Assembly: GCF_009765835.1 (NCBI RefSeq)
Contig: NZ_LMUS01000006.1
Coordinates: forward strand, 1,074,438-1,138,437
Direction: 5' to 3'
DNA: 64,000 nucleotides
DNA from: Granulicella sp. L56
GTDB lineage: Bacteria > Acidobacteriota > Terriglobia > Terriglobales > Acidobacteriaceae
Translations under genes and position numbers: made by a program
The notes under the pieces: generated by a model
What the model saw: the letters and a program-made list of their open reading frames with translations, nothing else
Databases searched by the model: none
What the model was told of the DNA's origin: nothing
Shown: positions 36,009-49,024 of the stretch, in pieces
Layout: each line of letters begins with the position of its first letter
How positions within the stretch are numbered: the stretch's first letter is position 1

Positions 36009-36509
36009 CTAAGCCTTATGGAGGCTCTTGGACGGGTTCCGCAGGCCCAGCACATGAAAGTCTTTGAGGCCGCCCTTCAGCACGTAAACCAGCTTGTTGT
36101 TGCCGTTCGGGTCGGTGGGCATCAAAAAGAAGCCGTCCTGCAGCACAAAGTCGGAGTTATTGCTGACGATTCCCTCAATCATCTCGCTGTCATGGAAGTA
36201 AACGCGCACCCACAGGCCTTCAAGAACCGGCGCATGTCCATGAAAGTGCAGCGCCCTGTGCTTGAGATCTCCCTCGAACGTCTTGACGAAAAAGACCGCC
36301 TTGGCATCCTTGGTGGGCACCTCTTCGATTGTCTGAGAGTCCAGCAGGCGCAGCCTGATCGAGTCCAGAGGCGACTCCTGCGTGCTGTGCAGAAGCTCCT
36401 CAACCGATCCCAAATCCGTTACTTCCGCAAAGCCGCGCACAGCCCGGTCTTCATACCGGACAACGATCCGATGTGTATTTGCTGACTCTCCATCGCCACG
36501 TTGCGCCAC
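36009..36509 (-). CDS. Uncharacterised protein coupled to the sigma-54 activator
   Basis: The 166-residue protein starts at a GTG that shares its first base with the TAG stop of the upstream activator, so it is translated by coupling. It has no signal peptide or membrane segment. The central part is strand-rich (HRALHFHGHAPVLEGLWVRVYFHDSEMIEGIV), ending in DGFFLMPTDPNGNNKLVYV; the phrase VRVYFHDSEMIEG suggests a small beta-barrel, as in PilZ- or SH3-like folds, but I cannot assign one. It may modulate the activator or report a signal to it. Confidence 0.75.
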   Translation of the reverse strand: MAQRGDGESANTHRIVVRYEDRAVRGFAEVTDLGSVEELLHSTQESPLDSIRLRLLDSQTIEEVPTKDAKAVFFVKTFEGDLKHRALHFHGHAPVLEGLWVRVYFHDSEMIEGIVSNNSDFVLQDGFFLMPTDPNGNNKLVYVLKGGLKDFHVLGLRNPSKSLHKA

Positions 36510-37939
36510 TAAGCCTGACTCCGCGGAGAGAGATCGTACTGCTTAATCTTGTAGAGCAAAGCCTTGTAGCTGATCTGAAGGTCGCTGGCTGCGGCCTTCC
36601 GGTTCCATCCAGTTCCCTCAAGCACGCGAGCAATTGCCGTCGCCTCCGCGTCGCCCTTCAACCCTCGAACCAGGGCCTTAAGCCCGGCTCCGTTTGAGGC
36701 TTCTCCGGCGGTACCGGAAGAGCTCTGGCTACCACCTGACGGGGAAAGCTCGTCCAGAATCGCGCGCTCATCCCCCAGAACCAGGTAGCGATTGACAACG
36801 TTTTCCAGTTCGCGCAGATTGCCGGGCCAGGGATGCTCAGTCAGCGCATTCATCAGTCTTGGCGAGAAGGGAAGCTCATCGCGCCCATACCGCTTTGCTC
36901 CCTTGCGCATAAAGTACTCGGAAAGCACGGGAATCTCCTCCCTGCGCTCGCGCAGCGGGGGGATGTTGAGCGTGAAGCCGTTGAGGCGATAGTACAAATC
37001 CTCGCGAAAGGTCTTCTGCGCCATCGCCTCTTTCATGTTGATATTCGTTGCCGCGATCACGCGCACATCCACCTTCATCGGAGCGCGGCTGCCGAGGCGC
37101 GAAAAAGTTCCATCCTGCAATACCTGCAACAACTTAGCCTGTAGAATCGCGGGCATCTCGCCGATCTCGTCGAGAAAGATCGTTCCGCCGGTGCAGACTT
37201 CAAACTTTCCGGGCTTGGTCTTGATCGCGCCGGTAAATGCGCCCTGCTCGTAACCGAATAATTCGCTTTCGAGCAGCTCGGCTGGAACGGCAGCGCAATT
37301 GACCTTCAGGAAGATATGCTGGCTGCGGGCCGACATCATGTGCGTGTAGAGCGCAAGAATCTCTTTTCCGGTGCCGCTCTCCCCAAGGATGAGCAGAGGG
37401 ATATCGGCGCGGGCCACCAGCGCGGCCTGCGACTCCAGATCGCGCATCCGCTTGCTAGACCGCACGAAGGAATGGGTCTCGTTCAGAGGTATCTCGCGAG
37501 GCGTATCCGCCGATGATGTCTTCTTGTCCGCGGATGCGAGCTGCTCTTCAATGGTCGCTTCCACGTCGCAGCCGACAAATGGCTTCATCACGATGGCCTT
37601 GACGCCCAGCCTGATGACCGTCTCGATGTCACGCAGCTCGGACGAGCCTGAGAGCACAATGACTGGAAGATGCGGCTTGGAACAACGAATCTGGGTCAGC
37701 AACGGGAGCGAGTCGCGGTTGCTGTGCAGGGCCAGCAAAAGAAGATCGGGCTCGTCGCGCTGTTCGAGCCTGTCAAGCAACGTTTGTTCTTCCGAGAACA
37801 GACTAAGGACGTATTTGCCCCCAAGGGTCGACCGGAGATAATCAAGAACCGCCAGGTCCGGTTCCAGAATAAGAATCTGGGCCCGCGACTTCGCAGTGGA
37901 CTTCGAAACAGAGACCGGATGAGACAGCGAAGTTGCCAT
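36509..37939 (-). CDS. Sigma-54-dependent activator with degenerate receiver domain
   Basis: ATG 37939 (AGAGG 9 bases upstream) gives 476 residues; a TTG at 37972 is less likely. Residues about 20-140 are a response-regulator receiver, but the phospho-acceptor position in DLLLLALHS is Ala (about residue 70) where Asp is expected; IVLSG and the Lys of IVMKPF are kept. The AAA+ domain has GESGTGKE (Walker A), YEQGAFTGA (sigma-54 contact) and FLDEIGEMP (Walker B). The C-terminus is a Fis-type helix-turn-helix (GWNRKAAASDLQISYKALLYK). It should activate RpoN promoters without ordinary phosphorylation. It is divergent from a second activator and next to the EPS genes. Confidence 0.92.
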   Translation of the reverse strand: MATSLSHPVSVSKSTAKSRAQILILEPDLAVLDYLRSTLGGKYVLSLFSEEQTLLDRLEQRDEPDLLLLALHSNRDSLPLLTQIRCSKPHLPVIVLSGSSELRDIETVIRLGVKAIVMKPFVGCDVEATIEEQLASADKKTSSADTPREIPLNETHSFVRSSKRMRDLESQAALVARADIPLLILGESGTGKEILALYTHMMSARSQHIFLKVNCAAVPAELLESELFGYEQGAFTGAIKTKPGKFEVCTGGTIFLDEIGEMPAILQAKLLQVLQDGTFSRLGSRAPMKVDVRVIAATNINMKEAMAQKTFREDLYYRLNGFTLNIPPLRERREEIPVLSEYFMRKGAKRYGRDELPFSPRLMNALTEHPWPGNLRELENVVNRYLVLGDERAILDELSPSGGSQSSSGTAGEASNGAGLKALVRGLKGDAEATAIARVLEGTGWNRKAAASDLQISYKALLYKIKQYDLSPRSQA

Positions 37940-38439
37940 ACCAAAAAACCTCTTTGTCGCAGACTTGGCCAATTACCAAATCTTGCGATACTCATGAACC
38001 CGAATCGTTCCCTATTCGAACCCAACTCGTCTTCGATCTATCCGTCAAAATACTCTGACGGCCCTGCTGCCCGAATTCTAGATCGGTCGTGAAAGAACCG
38101 CGACAGAAAAAATGTTAACAACTTTGCCGACAAAAGAGATAAAGGTTTTCCATTTCTCTTCTCCGAACAGGTCTAGCTTACTATGCAACTTACATTGCAG
38201 ATGAGAACAAAATGTCATTTTTTTGCAGATTACTTTGGTAAACATTTTCACTATGACCTCGCAAAAGCTGATGAATATGGGATTACATCAGCAATCGAAG
38301 AAGGCCTACTCTTCTAATACGTTAGTTTGAGCAAAAAAGATGTCCCCATCTCCATCTCTTTGAGCCAATTGGTTGTCTACGTGCAACATGACTGGCATTG
38401 CAATATTGTGCCTCCTGCACCTTGATAGGAAAAATAATC
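37940..38439. other. Regulatory space between the two divergent activators
   Basis: About 500 bases, clearly richer in A and T than the flanks. One weak sigma-54-like element precedes the plus-strand gene (listed separately). An imperfect dyad GAGATAAAGGTTTTCCATTTCTC-like stretch lies near 38138-38160. No conserved ORF is seen. Confidence 0.5.
38369..38386 (+). promoter_or_regulatory. Weak candidate sigma-54 promoter of the receiver-less activator
   Basis: TTGGTTGTCTACGTGCAA keeps GG and GC exactly ten bases apart, with TGCA at the -12 element, but the -24 element departs from TGGCAC. It is about 55 bases before the TTG start. This would suggest auto- or cross-activation. Confidence 0.3.
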
Positions 38440-39531
38440 TTGATTCACCACGCTGAATCCGTTGCTGCGCTCAACCTGCCGCCACTCGACATCATTTTCG
38501 GGAGAACTGCAGCAATGCAGGCAGTCCGAAACAAACTGGAACGAGTCGCAGAGACTGATGTCCCTGTTCTCATCCAGGGGGAGAGTGGCACAGGGAAAGA
38601 GGTTTGCGTTCGCCTGCTCCATGCTCTCTCCAAGCGTGCCAGCGGCTCTCTGGTTAAGGTAAGTTGCCCCGCAATTCCCCATTCTTTGCTTGAAACCGAG
38701 CTGTTCGGATACGAAAAAGGCGCCTTTACCGGGGCCATGTCGACGAAACAGGGCCGGGTGGAACAAGCACACATGGGGACGTTGTTTCTCGACGAGGTTG
38801 GAAGCCTTGATCTCGCAGTCCAGGCCAAGCTGTTGCAGGTTCTGCAGGATGGCACCTTTACGCGGGTTGGAGGACATGACCCGCGCTCGATTACGACCCG
38901 GCTCGTCTCGGCTGCCAACTGCGACCTTCGCAATCAGGTGGAAGATGGGACGTTCCGTCTCGATTTCCTCTTTAGAATCAATGCAGTAACGATTAATCTT
39001 CCACCTTTGCGGCAGCGCATTGCAGACCTACCCGTCCTAATCGACTACTTCATCGAGCACTATGCAAAAGTTTTCCACCATGCACCGGAATTACTCTCCA
39101 AGAGCGCTGTGCGGTTGATGCAGAACTATCACTGGCCGGGAAATATCCGCCAGCTCGAGAATCTTATTCGGAGCTATGTCCTTATAGGGAGCGAGGATGC
39201 GCTGGTTGCGGAGCTGATGCCGGAGACGCCGCGCAGCGGAATCACCACGGAGATTGATCTGAGCGAGCCGGTATCGCTGAAGAACATTACGAAGAAGGCG
39301 ACTCAGGATCTGGAACGGCAGATCATTTTGAAGGTCTTGCAGGAGAATAGCTGGAACCGCCAAAAAACCGCTAAGTGGCTTCAAATCAGCTATCGGTCGC
39401 TGTTGTACAAACTGAGCGAGGCGGGGATGCCGGAAGTTCCACCGCGGCCGCTGCGGATTCCCGGTCTGGTGAAGAAGACCTCCGAGAGAACGCTGAAGCC
39501 TGCGCTTTCGTCGCGGAGCAGGATTTATTAG
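38440..39531 (+). CDS. Receiver-less sigma-54-dependent activator (PspF-like layout)
   Basis: The 363-residue protein is an AAA+ activator with only about 25 residues before the ATPase domain: QGESGTGKE (Walker A), YEKGAFTGAMSTK (GAFTGA loop), LFLDEVGSLD (Walker B), FLFRINAVTINLPPLRQR (sensor) and a Fis-type C-terminal helix-turn-helix (SWNRQKTAKWLQISYRSLLYK) followed by a basic tail. It lacks a sensing domain, so its activity must be set by expression or a binding partner. AGGA precedes a TTG at 38440, preferred over TTG 38398. It is divergent from the receiver-containing activator, whose HTH is similar. Confidence 0.9.
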   Translation: MIHHAESVAALNLPPLDIIFGRTAAMQAVRNKLERVAETDVPVLIQGESGTGKEVCVRLLHALSKRASGSLVKVSCPAIPHSLLETELFGYEKGAFTGAMSTKQGRVEQAHMGTLFLDEVGSLDLAVQAKLLQVLQDGTFTRVGGHDPRSITTRLVSAANCDLRNQVEDGTFRLDFLFRINAVTINLPPLRQRIADLPVLIDYFIEHYAKVFHHAPELLSKSAVRLMQNYHWPGNIRQLENLIRSYVLIGSEDALVAELMPETPRSGITTEIDLSEPVSLKNITKKATQDLERQIILKVLQENSWNRQKTAKWLQISYRSLLYKLSEAGMPEVPPRPLRIPGLVKKTSERTLKPALSSRSRIY

Positions 39532-44842: not shown

Positions 44843-46162
44843 TTAAAACTGACCGAGAGATGTGGAGCGGGGAGAGAAGGTGATTCCAACTCCAAACGTC
44901 TGCGTTAGACCGCTAAAGGCATTTTGCGTACTCAGCGAATCGTCGATGGATTGATGTTGAATGTTGTAAGTGGCGAAGGCGGAGAAGGAATCGGTCAATT
45001 TGCGCGAAACCTGCACACCGGCAAAGGTGAGGTTGGTTGTTCCACCGGCATAGGGGAACAGGGAGGTCGAGGAACCGACAAGAGCCCCCTCCTGCAACAG
45101 TCCGGACGTATGAGTATAGTTCCCGCTCAGAGAGGCCCTCCAGTCGGGACCGTAGGACCTGCCAATCGAGGCCGAGATGTCATCAGAGAGAGCACCGGGC
45201 TGCACCCCGGAGCCGCCGTTGACTCCGCGTGAGTAGCTTACGCTCATCTGGGTGATTTCGCGGATGTAACTGAGATTGAGATTGGTACTCACCGTCACAC
45301 GAGAAGGGATCAACGCACTATTGGAGCTACTGAGCCACATAGGCCCCGCAGAGGCGCTCCCTTTGAGCGAGCTGCTTAAAGTGCGTTCGAATGCGGCAGT
45401 GATACCACGGGTTTGCATGGTCAGACCGATGCCGCCCCCGTAGCTGTAAGTCGAATAGAGAGCGCTTCCGCTGATCGTGTCTCGCGCATCGAGGCGATGA
45501 TTGAGGCCAAGGTTTCCCGAGTACTGGGTGTTTTCCAGACCTTCTCCCTTGGGAAAGCGAAGCATCGACCAGTCCCCTGAGCCGCTGATAGAGGTCAGGG
45601 GAGTAAGTTCCCTCTCGACGTTCCCAGTGAGGGCGTTACTGACATTGGTGGCATTGTTCGTCAGCACTCCGCCCGCAGGCCCACTGGATACTCCCTGACC
45701 CGTCCCTGATCCGAGGTCCCCTACGCCGGGAATTCCGGAAAGGCCCAGCGTGGGGGTTTCCGGCAGATAACTAACCGAATCCGAGACGGCGAAGTGCCAT
45801 CGGCCGGCAACCAGACCTTGAGAGATGGCAAGGTTCTGAAAGGAAGTCGCGTGACCGCCGTACTCATTGCCCAGAATAAGGCCGCCAGCGTAGATCATGC
45901 TGAATGGATGCACAACGCTTGTGGAGTTGTACGCTGCGTCTCCTGAGAAAACGGCCGAATTGCCGGTGCCCACTCTCTCACTTCCAATCTCGACCATCTC
46001 CGAGGCGCGCAAGGCGTAGTGGAAGACGCCATCGACCGAGGGAAGGCTGGGGCCGACACTGGGCGACATGGTGCCAGCGGGAACCGCCTGCGCACAGGCT
46101 ACGGAAGCCGCCGCAGCGATGAGCGCCAGGGTAGCAATACAACTCTTCAGGTAGCGGCTCAT
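44843..46162 (-). CDS. Outer-membrane beta-barrel protein of the EPS locus
   Basis: The 439-residue protein has a signal peptide (SCIATLALIAAAASVACAQA). The remainder alternates polar and hydrophobic residues in strand-length runs (TISGSALYSTYSYGGGIGLTM, LNLSYIREITQMSVSYSRG) and ends in a run finishing GVGITFSPRSTSLGQF. This is the pattern of a barrel of perhaps 16-18 strands. Similar proteins occur at this place in exosortase/EPS loci and may secrete or anchor the polymer. It overlaps the exporter gene upstream by 4 bases. No sorting signal is present at the C-terminus. Confidence 0.82.
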   Translation of the reverse strand: MSRYLKSCIATLALIAAAASVACAQAVPAGTMSPSVGPSLPSVDGVFHYALRASEMVEIGSERVGTGNSAVFSGDAAYNSTSVVHPFSMIYAGGLILGNEYGGHATSFQNLAISQGLVAGRWHFAVSDSVSYLPETPTLGLSGIPGVGDLGSGTGQGVSSGPAGGVLTNNATNVSNALTGNVERELTPLTSISGSGDWSMLRFPKGEGLENTQYSGNLGLNHRLDARDTISGSALYSTYSYGGGIGLTMQTRGITAAFERTLSSSLKGSASAGPMWLSSSNSALIPSRVTVSTNLNLSYIREITQMSVSYSRGVNGGSGVQPGALSDDISASIGRSYGPDWRASLSGNYTHTSGLLQEGALVGSSTSLFPYAGGTTNLTFAGVQVSRKLTDSFSAFATYNIQHQSIDDSLSTQNAFSGLTQTFGVGITFSPRSTSLGQF

Positions 46163-46800
46163 GGAACCACAATCGTGTCGCCAGGTTCGAGCGAGACGTC
46201 CTGTTTATCGTCGCCTTTCAGCGCTTTTTTATAGTCAAAGGGTATCTTCTTCTGGGCAGCGCCGGTGCCGCGCAGAATGTAGATGCGCTTGGCGTGAGCG
46301 AAGGGCGAGAGGCCGCCAGCCGAGGAGATTGCCTGCAGCGGCGTCATGCCCGGGGTCATCGCGAGCGCGCCGACATGGCCGACATTTCCGATCACGAAGA
46401 TCCGCTGGCTGTTAACACCGAGAACAACGACCGAGACGATGGGGTCCTGGACGTACTTCTTAAGTCGCTGGGTGATGTCGGCGGCGAGTGCCATGGGGGT
46501 CAGTCCCGCGGCCTGCAGGTCACCCAGCAGAACGAGGGAGATCCGGCCATCGGGCCGGACGGGAACCGTACCCGAAAGAGTAGGCTCCTTCCAGACCGTG
46601 ACCTGAAGCGAATCCTCAGCGCCAATCATGTAGTGGGCGATATCGCTGGAGTCCGTCGTGGATGGCTTTTGCGTTGCATCCGTCGCGGCAGGGGGAACAC
46701 TCTGTGCGGTTGCAGCGGCTGGGGATTGCGTTTGTTGGGCAACTGCGGCAGAAGGCATTGCAGGCAACATTGCCATGAGCACGACAAGAGACCACTTCAT
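46159..46800 (-). CDS. Wza-type polysaccharide export protein
   Basis: With ATG 46800 (GAGGGAG upstream) the protein has 213 residues and a signal peptide (SLVVLMAMLPAMPSAAVAQQ). YMIGAEDSLQVTVWKEPTLSGTVPVRPDGRISLVLLGDLQAAGLTP is the Poly_export domain and VFVIGNVGHVGALAMTPGMTPLQAISSAGGLSPFAHAKRIYILRG (read in part) the SLBB domain. It forms the outer-membrane or periplasmic export channel. No lipobox Cys is seen, so it differs from classical Wza. It is the first gene of the minus-strand EPS operon; the frame open to 47109 is not used. Confidence 0.92.
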   Translation of the reverse strand: MKWSLVVLMAMLPAMPSAAVAQQTQSPAAATAQSVPPAATDATQKPSTTDSSDIAHYMIGAEDSLQVTVWKEPTLSGTVPVRPDGRISLVLLGDLQAAGLTPMALAADITQRLKKYVQDPIVSVVVLGVNSQRIFVIGNVGHVGALAMTPGMTPLQAISSAGGLSPFAHAKRIYILRGTGAAQKKIPFDYKKALKGDDKQDVSLEPGDTIVVP

Positions 46801-47250
46801 TGGGTAACTCCCTCTCTTCAAGCCGCTAACCGGCTTCTCCCATTCTGCCTCATCTGCTTCCTGTTGCAGCCTTTTTGTCTTGAATATCCGATAATGGCCC
46901 CACAGGGAGCCCTGCGCGAGTGGTGTTGAATCGATTGCCTTTGCAGCAGTCGCTACACCCCAGCGATAGATTGTCGTGCCAACATGGCCGGTTGGGTCAA
47001 CCGCCCGTCCTGTGCACTCTTGATTTTGTTTCGTAAAACCTACAATCATAGGAATCCTTTTGGCTAATACGTGGTTCTGAAGCACGAAGAATGCCAAACT
47101 GGAGGACAAGGCAGGGTTTGACTAAAAAGTTGCAACCTTTTGCTGGTTCTGCCCATAGTCATGCAGCCATCTGATTTGGTTATGGTCTATAGTTCCCAAA
47201 AGGAGCGCTGCTGTAGCGATGGGGCCGCATTAATGTGCAAATTGACGGCA

Positions 47251-47274
47251 CATGTGGGAAATGTTTTTCCCATG
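47251..47274. promoter_or_regulatory. Dyad 1 upstream of the exosortase gene
   Basis: TGGGAAA and TTTCCCA are perfect 7-base arms around TGTT, flanked on both sides by CATG. It lies about 100 bases before the exosortase start and is a candidate protein-binding site. Confidence 0.45.
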
Positions 47275-47312
47275 ACTTAACCCATCGTCTTCCACTTTGA
47301 CGGGGGATTGGA

Positions 47313-47331
47313 GTTCTTTCCGGGAAAGAAC
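47313..47331. promoter_or_regulatory. Dyad 2 upstream of the exosortase gene
   Basis: GTTCTTTCC and GGAAAGAAC are perfect 9-base arms around a single G. It ends 41 bases before the start codon. It shares the TTTCC/GGAAA half-site with dyad 1, which argues for a common binding protein. Confidence 0.5.
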
Positions 47332-47372
47332 CAGCCCATCGCTGCGGCATTCAAATTGCTTACAGGAGACAT

Positions 47373-48326
47373 GTGAAGTATAACGTCTTACGAATGACAG
47401 GCAGTACCCAAGCCGAGCCTTATCCTCCTGAGCTGACCGCGAGCCGGGAAGACCGTGGGCCTAACGGCTCGAATGCTGCGAGCGAACCCCGCAGATATGG
47501 CTGGCTGCCCTATGCCATCGTCGCCGCGCTGCTGGTCACCATCTACTACCACATCGCAGGCAAGCTGGTTTACGACTGGTACACCATCCCTGACTACTCT
47601 CACGGTTTCCTGGTGCCGCTCTTTGCCGGGTACCTGATCTGGGACAAGAAAGCGGCCCTAAGCGCAGTTCCAGTGCAACCAAGCTGGCGCGGGCTCTCCC
47701 TGATCGTGCCAGGCATCGTCCTGCTTATTCTTGGCGTCTACGGGGTTGAGCTTTTTACCACCCGCATGTCTTTCCTCCTCCTGATGGGAGGGCTGATATG
47801 GACGTTCTTTGGCGGAAAGATGCTGCGTGAGCTGCGGTTTCCCCTGCTGGTGCTCATTCTCGCCATTCCGATTCCCGCCATCGTCTTCAATCACATCACC
47901 TTTCCATTGCAGTTGATGGCATCGCGGATCGCCAGCGACATCTTGCCGATGTTGGGCGTCCCTGTGCTGCAGGAAGGCAACGTCATCCAGCTACCGGCGA
48001 TGAAGCTGGAGGTAGCCGAGGCGTGCAGCGGCATCCGCTCCTTAATGAGCCTGTTCGCGCTGGCGGTCTTCTACGGCTATTTCCTTGAGCGCCGGACCTC
48101 GCGCCGGACGATTCTGGCACTGGCCAGTATTCCCATCGCGGTGGCCGCGAACGTTGTCCGCATCGTCGGCACCGGCCTGTGCGTGCAGTACTGGGACCCG
48201 GACAAAGCGGTTGGGTTCTTTCACGAATTTTCCGGCTGGGTCATGTTCGTCATCTCCCTCTGTTGCCTGTACCTCGTCCACCGGGCGATGCAGCTTATCT
48301 GGCCGACGACTGGGGAAAAAGCATGA
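47373..48326 (+). CDS. Exosortase (EpsH/XrtA-like membrane cysteine protease)
   Basis: The 317-residue protein has about eight membrane helices. DYSHGFLVPLFAGYLIW is the family N-terminal signature. The catalytic set is AEACSGIRSL with Cys near 218, NVVRIVGTG with Arg near 263, and FFHEFSGW with His near 284. Exosortases cleave C-terminal PEP-CTERM-like signals and hand proteins to the cell surface or EPS. AGGAG is close to GTG 47373; ATG 47394 is an alternative. The stop overlaps the start of epsI (ATGA). The subtype cannot be decided by eye. Confidence 0.94.
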   Translation: MKYNVLRMTGSTQAEPYPPELTASREDRGPNGSNAASEPRRYGWLPYAIVAALLVTIYYHIAGKLVYDWYTIPDYSHGFLVPLFAGYLIWDKKAALSAVPVQPSWRGLSLIVPGIVLLILGVYGVELFTTRMSFLLLMGGLIWTFFGGKMLRELRFPLLVLILAIPIPAIVFNHITFPLQLMASRIASDILPMLGVPVLQEGNVIQLPAMKLEVAEACSGIRSLMSLFALAVFYGYFLERRTSRRTILALASIPIAVAANVVRIVGTGLCVQYWDPDKAVGFFHEFSGWVMFVISLCCLYLVHRAMQLIWPTTGEKA

Positions 48327-49008: not shown

Positions 49009-49024
49009 TGGAACGGAAATTGCT
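49009..49024 (+). promoter_or_regulatory. Sigma-54 (RpoN) promoter of the TPR lipoprotein gene
   Basis: TGGAACGGAAATTGCT matches the consensus TGGCACGNNNNTTGCW at all but one fixed position and has GG and GC exactly ten bases apart. It begins 9 bases after the epsI stop and about 90 bases before the TPR start, leaving a leader of about 80 bases. Two sigma-54 activators are encoded 10 kb upstream. Confidence 0.78.

Follow-up and report, generated by a model that had tools for sequence, protein, structure and literature searches.

The exosortase gene of Granulicella sp. L56 is divergent from an exopolysaccharide (EPS) operon, and the region between them raises the question of what two perfect inverted repeats are doing there. 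The window is the whole stretch of DNA that was analysed, 64,000 nucleotides of contig NZ_LMUS01000006.1, and its features are collected in Table 1. The gene order is the Wza-type gene on the minus strand, the two dyads, the exosortase gene, and then genes for EpsI and a PrsT-type TPR protein (TIGR02917, 376.7 bits against a cut-off of 312.2). The genome encodes 21 PEP-CTERM proteins above the model cut-off. With an exosortase, several PEP-CTERM proteins, EpsI and EPS genes, this is a PEP-CTERM/exosortase system with an EPS locus, in which several XrtA-type models score below their cut-offs. The exosortase itself reaches 206.5 against 208 with the XrtA model, and the Wza-type protein 149.6 against 180 with TIGR03027. 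Dyad 1 has perfect 7-bp arms, TGGGAAA and TTTCCCA, around the 4-bp spacer TGTT. Dyad 2 has perfect 9-bp arms, GTTCTTTCC and GGAAAGAAC, around a single G. The gap between the dyads is 40 bp, and both lie 42–118 bp upstream of GTG 47373. A preliminary description of this DNA had reported two perfect dyads before the exosortase gene, and both are indeed present. It had also held such arms to be unlikely by chance. With the 569-bp region 46804–47372 shuffled 2000 times under a first-order Markov model, two dyads with arms of at least 7 bp are observed against 0.38 expected (P = 0.06 for two or more), 0.025 dyads are expected with arms of at least 9 bp (P = 0.025), and the two conditions jointly give P = 0.008.

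Table 1. Features of the exosortase control region and of the candidate activator genes (window coordinates)
Feature	Position	Strand	Sequence	Remarks
EBP-A, sigma-54 activator gene	36509..37972	-		GAFTGA loop, Fis-type HTH, receiver without phospho-acceptor Asp
Dyad-1-like site	38136..38151	.	GAGATAAAGGTTTTCC	9/12; in the best-conserved block of the EBP-A/EBP-B intergenic region
Sigma-54-like site before EBP-B	38370..38385	+	TGGTTGTCTACGTGCA	TGG-N6-ACGTGC in 18/20 genus regions
EBP-B, sigma-54 activator gene	38398..39531	+		GAFTGA loop, Fis-type HTH, no receiver
Wza-type polysaccharide export gene	46159..46800	-		Poly_export and SLBB; heads the divergent EPS operon
Sigma-54-like site of divergent EPS operon	47081..47096	-	TGGCATTCTTCGTGCT	TGGCV-N7-TGCW in 27/30 loci; predicted start near 47070
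Conserved block directly 5' of dyad 1	47236..47251	.	TGCAAATTGACGGCAC	columns -20 to -8 at 1.0–1.3 bits, 24 loci
Dyad 1, proposed upstream activating site	47255..47272	.	TGGGAAATGTTTTTCCCA	module in 22/30 regions; arms 1.70 bits
Second element, possible second activator site	47289..47303	.	CTTCCACTTTGACGG	31–33 bp after dyad 1 start
Dyad 2	47313..47331	.	GTTCTTTCCGGGAAAGAAC	present, not conserved; 0.27 bits, chance P = 0.025
Sigma-54-like -24/-12 site of exosortase	47345..47360	+	CGGCATTCAAATTGCT	GG-N10-GC; combined pattern with dyad 1
Exosortase gene	47373..48326	+		TIGR02602 204.7 bits against cut-off 105.55; ORF from GTG, ATG 47394 likelier

Dyad 1 is conserved in relatives together with a sigma-54-like -24/-12 site before the exosortase gene. 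The unselected set consists of 30 orthologous exosortase upstream regions chosen by protein similarity. Named relatives are Edaphobacter, Granulicella, Bryocella, unclassified Acidobacteriaceae and a few other names. A region was counted when GGGAAA-N4-TTTCCC was matched in 9 or more of its 12 arm positions, 79–115 bp before a GG-N10-GC site scoring at least 11.5 with our own sigma-54 consensus and scoring weights. Dyad and promoter-like site are found together in 22 of the 30 regions, compared with a mean of 0.08 and a maximum of 2 in 60 shuffled sets. The stricter cuts of 10 and 11 arm positions leave 20 and 16 regions, with 0 in any shuffle. In an enlarged set the module is present in 31 of 39 genomes (30 once G035 is dropped), nine of which came from pattern matches and are thus selected, so 22/30 stays the unselected figure. 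G035 combines a dyad of 11/12 with a weak sigma-54-like site (11.5) and was removed by hand from the column counts, the EPS-site counts and the 0/6 count given below. The module is missing from eight of the 30 regions, three of them (G007, G013 and G027) in genomes with EBP-B. Over 24 non-redundant loci the mean information is 1.70 bits in the dyad 1 arms and 2.00 bits in the six fixed sigma-54 columns, both inflated by locus selection, and 0.48 bits in the flanks. The fixed columns of the exosortase -24/-12 site are invariant in these 24 loci, which were selected for the site. Between the two dyads, the second element reads CTACCACTTTGGTAG or kin in one subclade and is replaced by CTATGGTCGA-type sequence in another.

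Measured start to start, the distances between dyad 1 and the promoter site fall into clusters of 85–91, 97–102 and 107–111 bp, about one helical turn apart. With 14 distinct spacings compared with uniform draws, the phasing has P = 0.005 at a period of 10.5 bp and P = 0.0012 at the best period within 9.5–12. Since the species are related, these P values are overstated, and the phasing is suggestive. For the other two sigma-54-like sites the inner spacing was varied by one base. At the EPS operon, N6 and N8 versions of the pattern are found in 1/30 loci each. Before EBP-B, N5 or N7 versions are found in 0/20 genus regions, where the pattern had been derived from an alignment of 17 of those 20 regions plus the L56 region. 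The genome carries an rpoN gene (366 bits against a cut-off of 277). Transcription from the exosortase site is predicted to start near 47371 (the -12 C is 47359), two bases 5' of GTG 47373. The GTGAAGTATAAC-type sequence after the predicted start is kept in relatives though its frame hits a stop (G018, G026, G072, G076) or shifts (G032), which points to a transcribed leader, with coding from ATG 47394. Thus GTG 47373 is probably not the real start of the exosortase. A further sigma-54-like sequence, TGGAACGGAAATTGCT before prsT at 49009–49024 (score 13.5), has a counterpart in 0/21 relatives examined and was rejected as chance.

The region thus shows what is looked for when a sigma-54 promoter is served by an activating site further upstream: a conserved, spacing-sensitive GG-N10-GC, a conserved and phased dyad about 80–150 bp upstream, and a genome with rpoN and enhancer-binding proteins (EBPs) with the GAFTGA loop. 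Our main reading, to which we give a probability of roughly 80%, is that a sigma-54 EBP, probably EBP-A/EBP-B, uses dyad 1 as its upstream activating site, and that dyad 2, lying within the looped spacer, is most likely a palindrome that arose by chance. A dimer of the Fis-type EBP would sit on dyad 1. The DNA between dyad 1 and the promoter (85–111 bp, with preferred helical faces) would loop out, and the looped activator would touch RNA polymerase–sigma-54 at the -24/-12 site 47345–47360. ATP hydrolysis by the activator would then open the polymerase–sigma-54 complex at the exosortase promoter. Dyad 1 may also drive the divergent EPS promoter at 47081–47096. It lies within the usual enhancer range of that promoter, so a single control region could turn on both the exosortase and its exopolysaccharide machinery. 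Some PEP-CTERM substrate genes are also preceded by copies of the module. The likely activators would be the divergent neighbours EBP-A and EBP-B. Binding, looping, activation, the identity of the binder and EPS control from dyad 1 are what we infer from the computed conservation, spacing, two promoter-like sites, recurrence at exosortase and some PEP-CTERM genes, and co-occurrence with EBP-A/B.

The module recurs at other loci. The combined pattern of dyad and sigma-54-like site has 48 matches in 33 of 62 congeneric genomes, where the reversed control has 6; lengthening the sigma-54 spacing by one base leaves 9 matches against 4. Exosortase genes account for 26 of the 48 matches, PEP-CTERM proteins for 5, a small membrane-protein ORF for 2 and other, unrelated genes for 15. 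Four of the five PEP-CTERM targets have a verified C-terminus (L072, L095, L098, L103), and the fifth (L088) was called by N-terminal likeness to L072 and L103. The L56 genome has two strict matches, before the exosortase gene and before a small ORF. Its PEP-CTERM gene at G000:C6:788895 has a dyad of 10/12, 89 bp from a sigma-54-like site, the same spacing as at the exosortase. A sigma-54-like site scoring at least 12.5 within 140 bp of the start is found in 6 of 49 PEP-CTERM upstream regions (0.6 expected from shuffles; a fiftieth region, L136, was left out as its match is not at the expected place), and one of the six also carries the dyad (1/49 overall). The module is present at a minority of PEP-CTERM genes.

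The perfect sequences of dyad 1 and dyad 2 occur once each in the L56 genome. At 0–1 mismatch there are 10 sites for dyad 1, compared with 6 when the reversed sequence serves as control; at 0–3 mismatches there are 6 for dyad 2, compared with 2. These counts are close to those of the controls, so looser dyad copies alone are near chance. Among the nine one-mismatch copies of dyad 1, one has a sigma-54-like site at the matching distance, before an ORF of 37 aa. This ORF (MYLLFIPALLAVLVIGFIQLRDQF..., G000:C6:738469–738579; L054, L085, L106) follows the module's second strict match. It has matches in 18 of 61 genomes including L56, all within the genus and at times in tandem copies. The module is upstream in 3 of 12 such loci examined, including that of L56; one of the 12 (L063) has no ORF at the expected place. 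The module pattern finds further candidate targets, such as this conserved ORF for a membrane peptide of 28–37 aa. In two related genomes a 91-aa ORF (MAAITLYTCLCGVQKKTSNHW...) is found behind the module pattern, L077 at G002:C2:153062 and L079 at G068:C1:652127; it is not known to be part of the PEP-CTERM system.

The two activators in the window to which the preliminary description had pointed, here called EBP-A and EBP-B, come out as the best candidates for binding dyad 1. They are encoded as an adjacent divergent pair adjoining the EPS operon. The EBP-A receiver has Ala at the position of the phospho-acceptor Asp (LLLLALH, compared with LLSDIRM in NtrC). The same Asp-less receiver is seen by eye in the aligned sequences of 7 named orthologues and 20 further ones. 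EBP-A and EBP-B co-occur in an identical 46 of the 62 genomes. EBP-B is present at 81% identity or more in 41/62, and 41/41 of these genomes have at least four PEP-CTERM proteins, compared with 5/21 of the others (P = 7e-11, with the cut of four set after viewing the table and with species that are not independent). Speaking against the pair, two genomes with diverged EBP-A/B (54–67%; G061 and G077) have no PEP-CTERM protein. The dyad is present in 21 of the 24 regions whose genome has EBP-B at that identity and in 0 of the 6 whose genome does not (P = 0.0001, 30 regions); with G035 kept, the latter count becomes 1/6 (P = 0.002). The relatedness of the species means that these P values, too, are overstated. 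The dyad-1-like site between the two activator genes may be autoregulatory, and taken with the sigma-54-like site before EBP-B it could point to a cascade or to autoregulation. EBP-A and EBP-B have recognition helices so similar that their sites would be indistinguishable. Separating them by covariation failed, because the HTH helices hardly vary among relatives. In one group of relatives (L175, L177, L178, L180 and L182–L185) another EBP gene, about 30% identical to EBP-A/B, is inserted between wza and exosortase.

Given that dyad 1 is an enhancer, we consider it somewhat better than an even bet that EBP-A and/or EBP-B is its binder. A different EBP of the genome is the less likely choice, and we regard it as rather unlikely; EBP-A/B would then act elsewhere, for example at the CTTCCACTTTG element or the EBP-B promoter. 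First-look candidates in the L56 genome number 27 for EBP-A and 16 for EBP-B, so the genome is rich in such activators and offers many alternatives. In addition, L175, L180, L183 and L185 keep a TGGAAA-N4-TTTC-type dyad 89–90 bp before the promoter site despite the different, about 30% identical EBP beside it. The exosortase of these four relatives is 54–67% identical, and they come from 16 loci examined, most of them without a dyad–promoter pair. Within the genus, however, the dyad tracks EBP-B (21/24 against 0/6 or 1/6), and the block that is best conserved between the EBP-A and EBP-B genes contains a dyad-1-like site; both argue for the neighbouring pair as activators.

Dyad 2 behaves differently from dyad 1. 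By chance statistics alone it is the more surprising of the two, whereas conservation reverses the order: dyad 1 is kept genus-wide and dyad 2 is not. Its columns average 0.27 bits over the 24 loci, a value that is not inflated by selection and is at or below background conservation, and it is missing from the three nearest relatives, G001, G023 and G073. This rules it out as a conserved site, and it is probably a chance or species-specific palindrome. The perfect 9-bp arms (P = 0.025) and the single perfect genome copy would fit an operator peculiar to this species, with a tuning role at the exosortase promoter. We consider this distinctly unlikely in view of the loss in the nearest relatives, the weak columns and the lack of another good copy in the genome, with 6 sites against 2 in the control at 0–3 mismatches. 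The half-site that the preliminary description saw as common to both dyads is oppositely oriented, GGAAA..TTTCC in dyad 1 and TTTCC..GGAAA in dyad 2, so the reading of both by one protein is not supported. Its further proposal, activator sites for the exosortase or the divergent EPS operon to be checked by footprinting, divides between the two. It fits dyad 1, which is conserved, has an enhancer-like position and is accompanied by conserved sigma-54-like sites at both genes; dyad 2 fails the footprint.

Palindromes with 6–7-bp arms are also typical of repressors. Dyad 1 could on this ground be the operator of a repressor or of a sigma-54-independent regulator, with an incidental sigma-54-like site, and we judge this very unlikely. 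The dyad and the -24/-12 site hold a phased distance and recur jointly at other loci, a one-base change in the -24/-12 spacing removes most of the excess over the control, and an operator has no need of a position 85–111 bp upstream. The footprint of the intergenic region, which was the extent of the search, gives no sign of a repressor. A scan of the region for a sigma-70-like promoter gave none, which fits sigma-54 control without proving it. That both dyads are functionless chance or hairpin sequence is hardly credible: the P value of 0.06 for two dyads would allow it, as would an intergenic region with no terminator and no RNA family above the gathering score (the single Rfam match is far below that score and outside the dyads), but dyad 1 and the promoter site are conserved in 22/30 regions against 0.08 in shuffles.

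The closest known system is the module described by Haft et al. 2006 (PMC1569441), who report a 17-nt motif ending in TTTACA, a mean spacer of 62.8 nt and a sigma-54 motif before PEP-CTERM genes. In that paper the module goes with PrsR/PrsK/PrsT and is described in Proteobacteria only. The two share an activator-site motif, a spacer and a -24/-12 motif before PEP-CTERM-system genes, a Fis-type EBP as proposed binder, and PrsT, whose gene is at the locus here. They differ in the motif and gap, here GGGAAA-N4-TTTCCC with 69–95 nt from dyad to promoter and there TTTACA with 62.8 nt, and in the main target, which is the exosortase itself here and PEP-CTERM genes there. TTTACA, the 3' end by which the motif was compared, or TGTAAA occurs in the interval from the dyad region to the promoter site in 0/30 loci. 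PrsR (TIGR02915) is above its cut-off in 0/62 genomes, with lower-scoring relatives in all 62; EBP-A reaches 307 bits against 502.6. The module does not stand before most PEP-CTERM genes, with a sigma-54-like site in 6/49 and an added dyad in 1/49. The architecture is like that of the Haft module, and PrsT is present; by TTTACA, PrsR and gene coverage it is not a member. The lack of a PrsR above cut-off and of the TTTACA core suggests an acidobacterial variant of the proteobacterial PEP-CTERM/sigma-54 regulation.

Two other systems are similar in part. In Aquincola tertiaricarbonis, the PEP-CTERM gene pepA is described as having an RpoN promoter preceded by a sequence that resembles an enhancer, and RpoN dependence was measured by transcription (PMC9850573). 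The promoter arrangement as described there is the same; the enhancer sequence is another one, and here the RpoN dependence is deduced from sequence. In vitro, the response regulator DVUA0057 of Desulfovibrio vulgaris binds DNA ahead of five predicted PEP-CTERM targets, and it has an EPS/biofilm link (PMC3333781). It resembles the proposed activators as a regulator tied to PEP-CTERM targets and EPS, and differs in being of the phosphorelay type, in another phylum and, in the account given of it there, without a validated binding motif. PspF and FlbD are examples of receiver-less or pseudo-receiver EBPs. The receiver of FlbD is described as atypical in the same account (PMC3333781). EBP-B without a receiver and EBP-A with a receiver lacking the phospho-acceptor Asp are of the same kind, whereas neither comes near the cut-offs of the PspF and FlbD models. 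Among open-licence PMC papers, a scope narrower than all print, we found none joining Acidobacteriota, exosortase and PEP-CTERM.

For acidobacteria the outcome is a defined site, a pair of promoter sites and a set of candidate activators. A wider picture, which we hold tentatively and at rather less than even odds, is an acidobacterial exosortase/EPS regulon with its own enhancer code, GGGAAA-N4-TTTCCC, a looped two-way control region and a phosphorylation-independent EBP pair that replaces the PrsK/PrsR switch. If true, a pseudo-receiver EBP and a receiver-less EBP, the second under a conserved sigma-54-like promoter, would stand in for the proteobacterial two-component switch. A separate observation concerns another PEP-CTERM gene of L56, L143 at G000:C6:965750. 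Its upstream region has a dyad of a different sequence, GTGCAA-N4-TTGCAC, followed at 99 bp by a strong sigma-54-like site; this may represent a second class of enhancer at PEP-CTERM genes.
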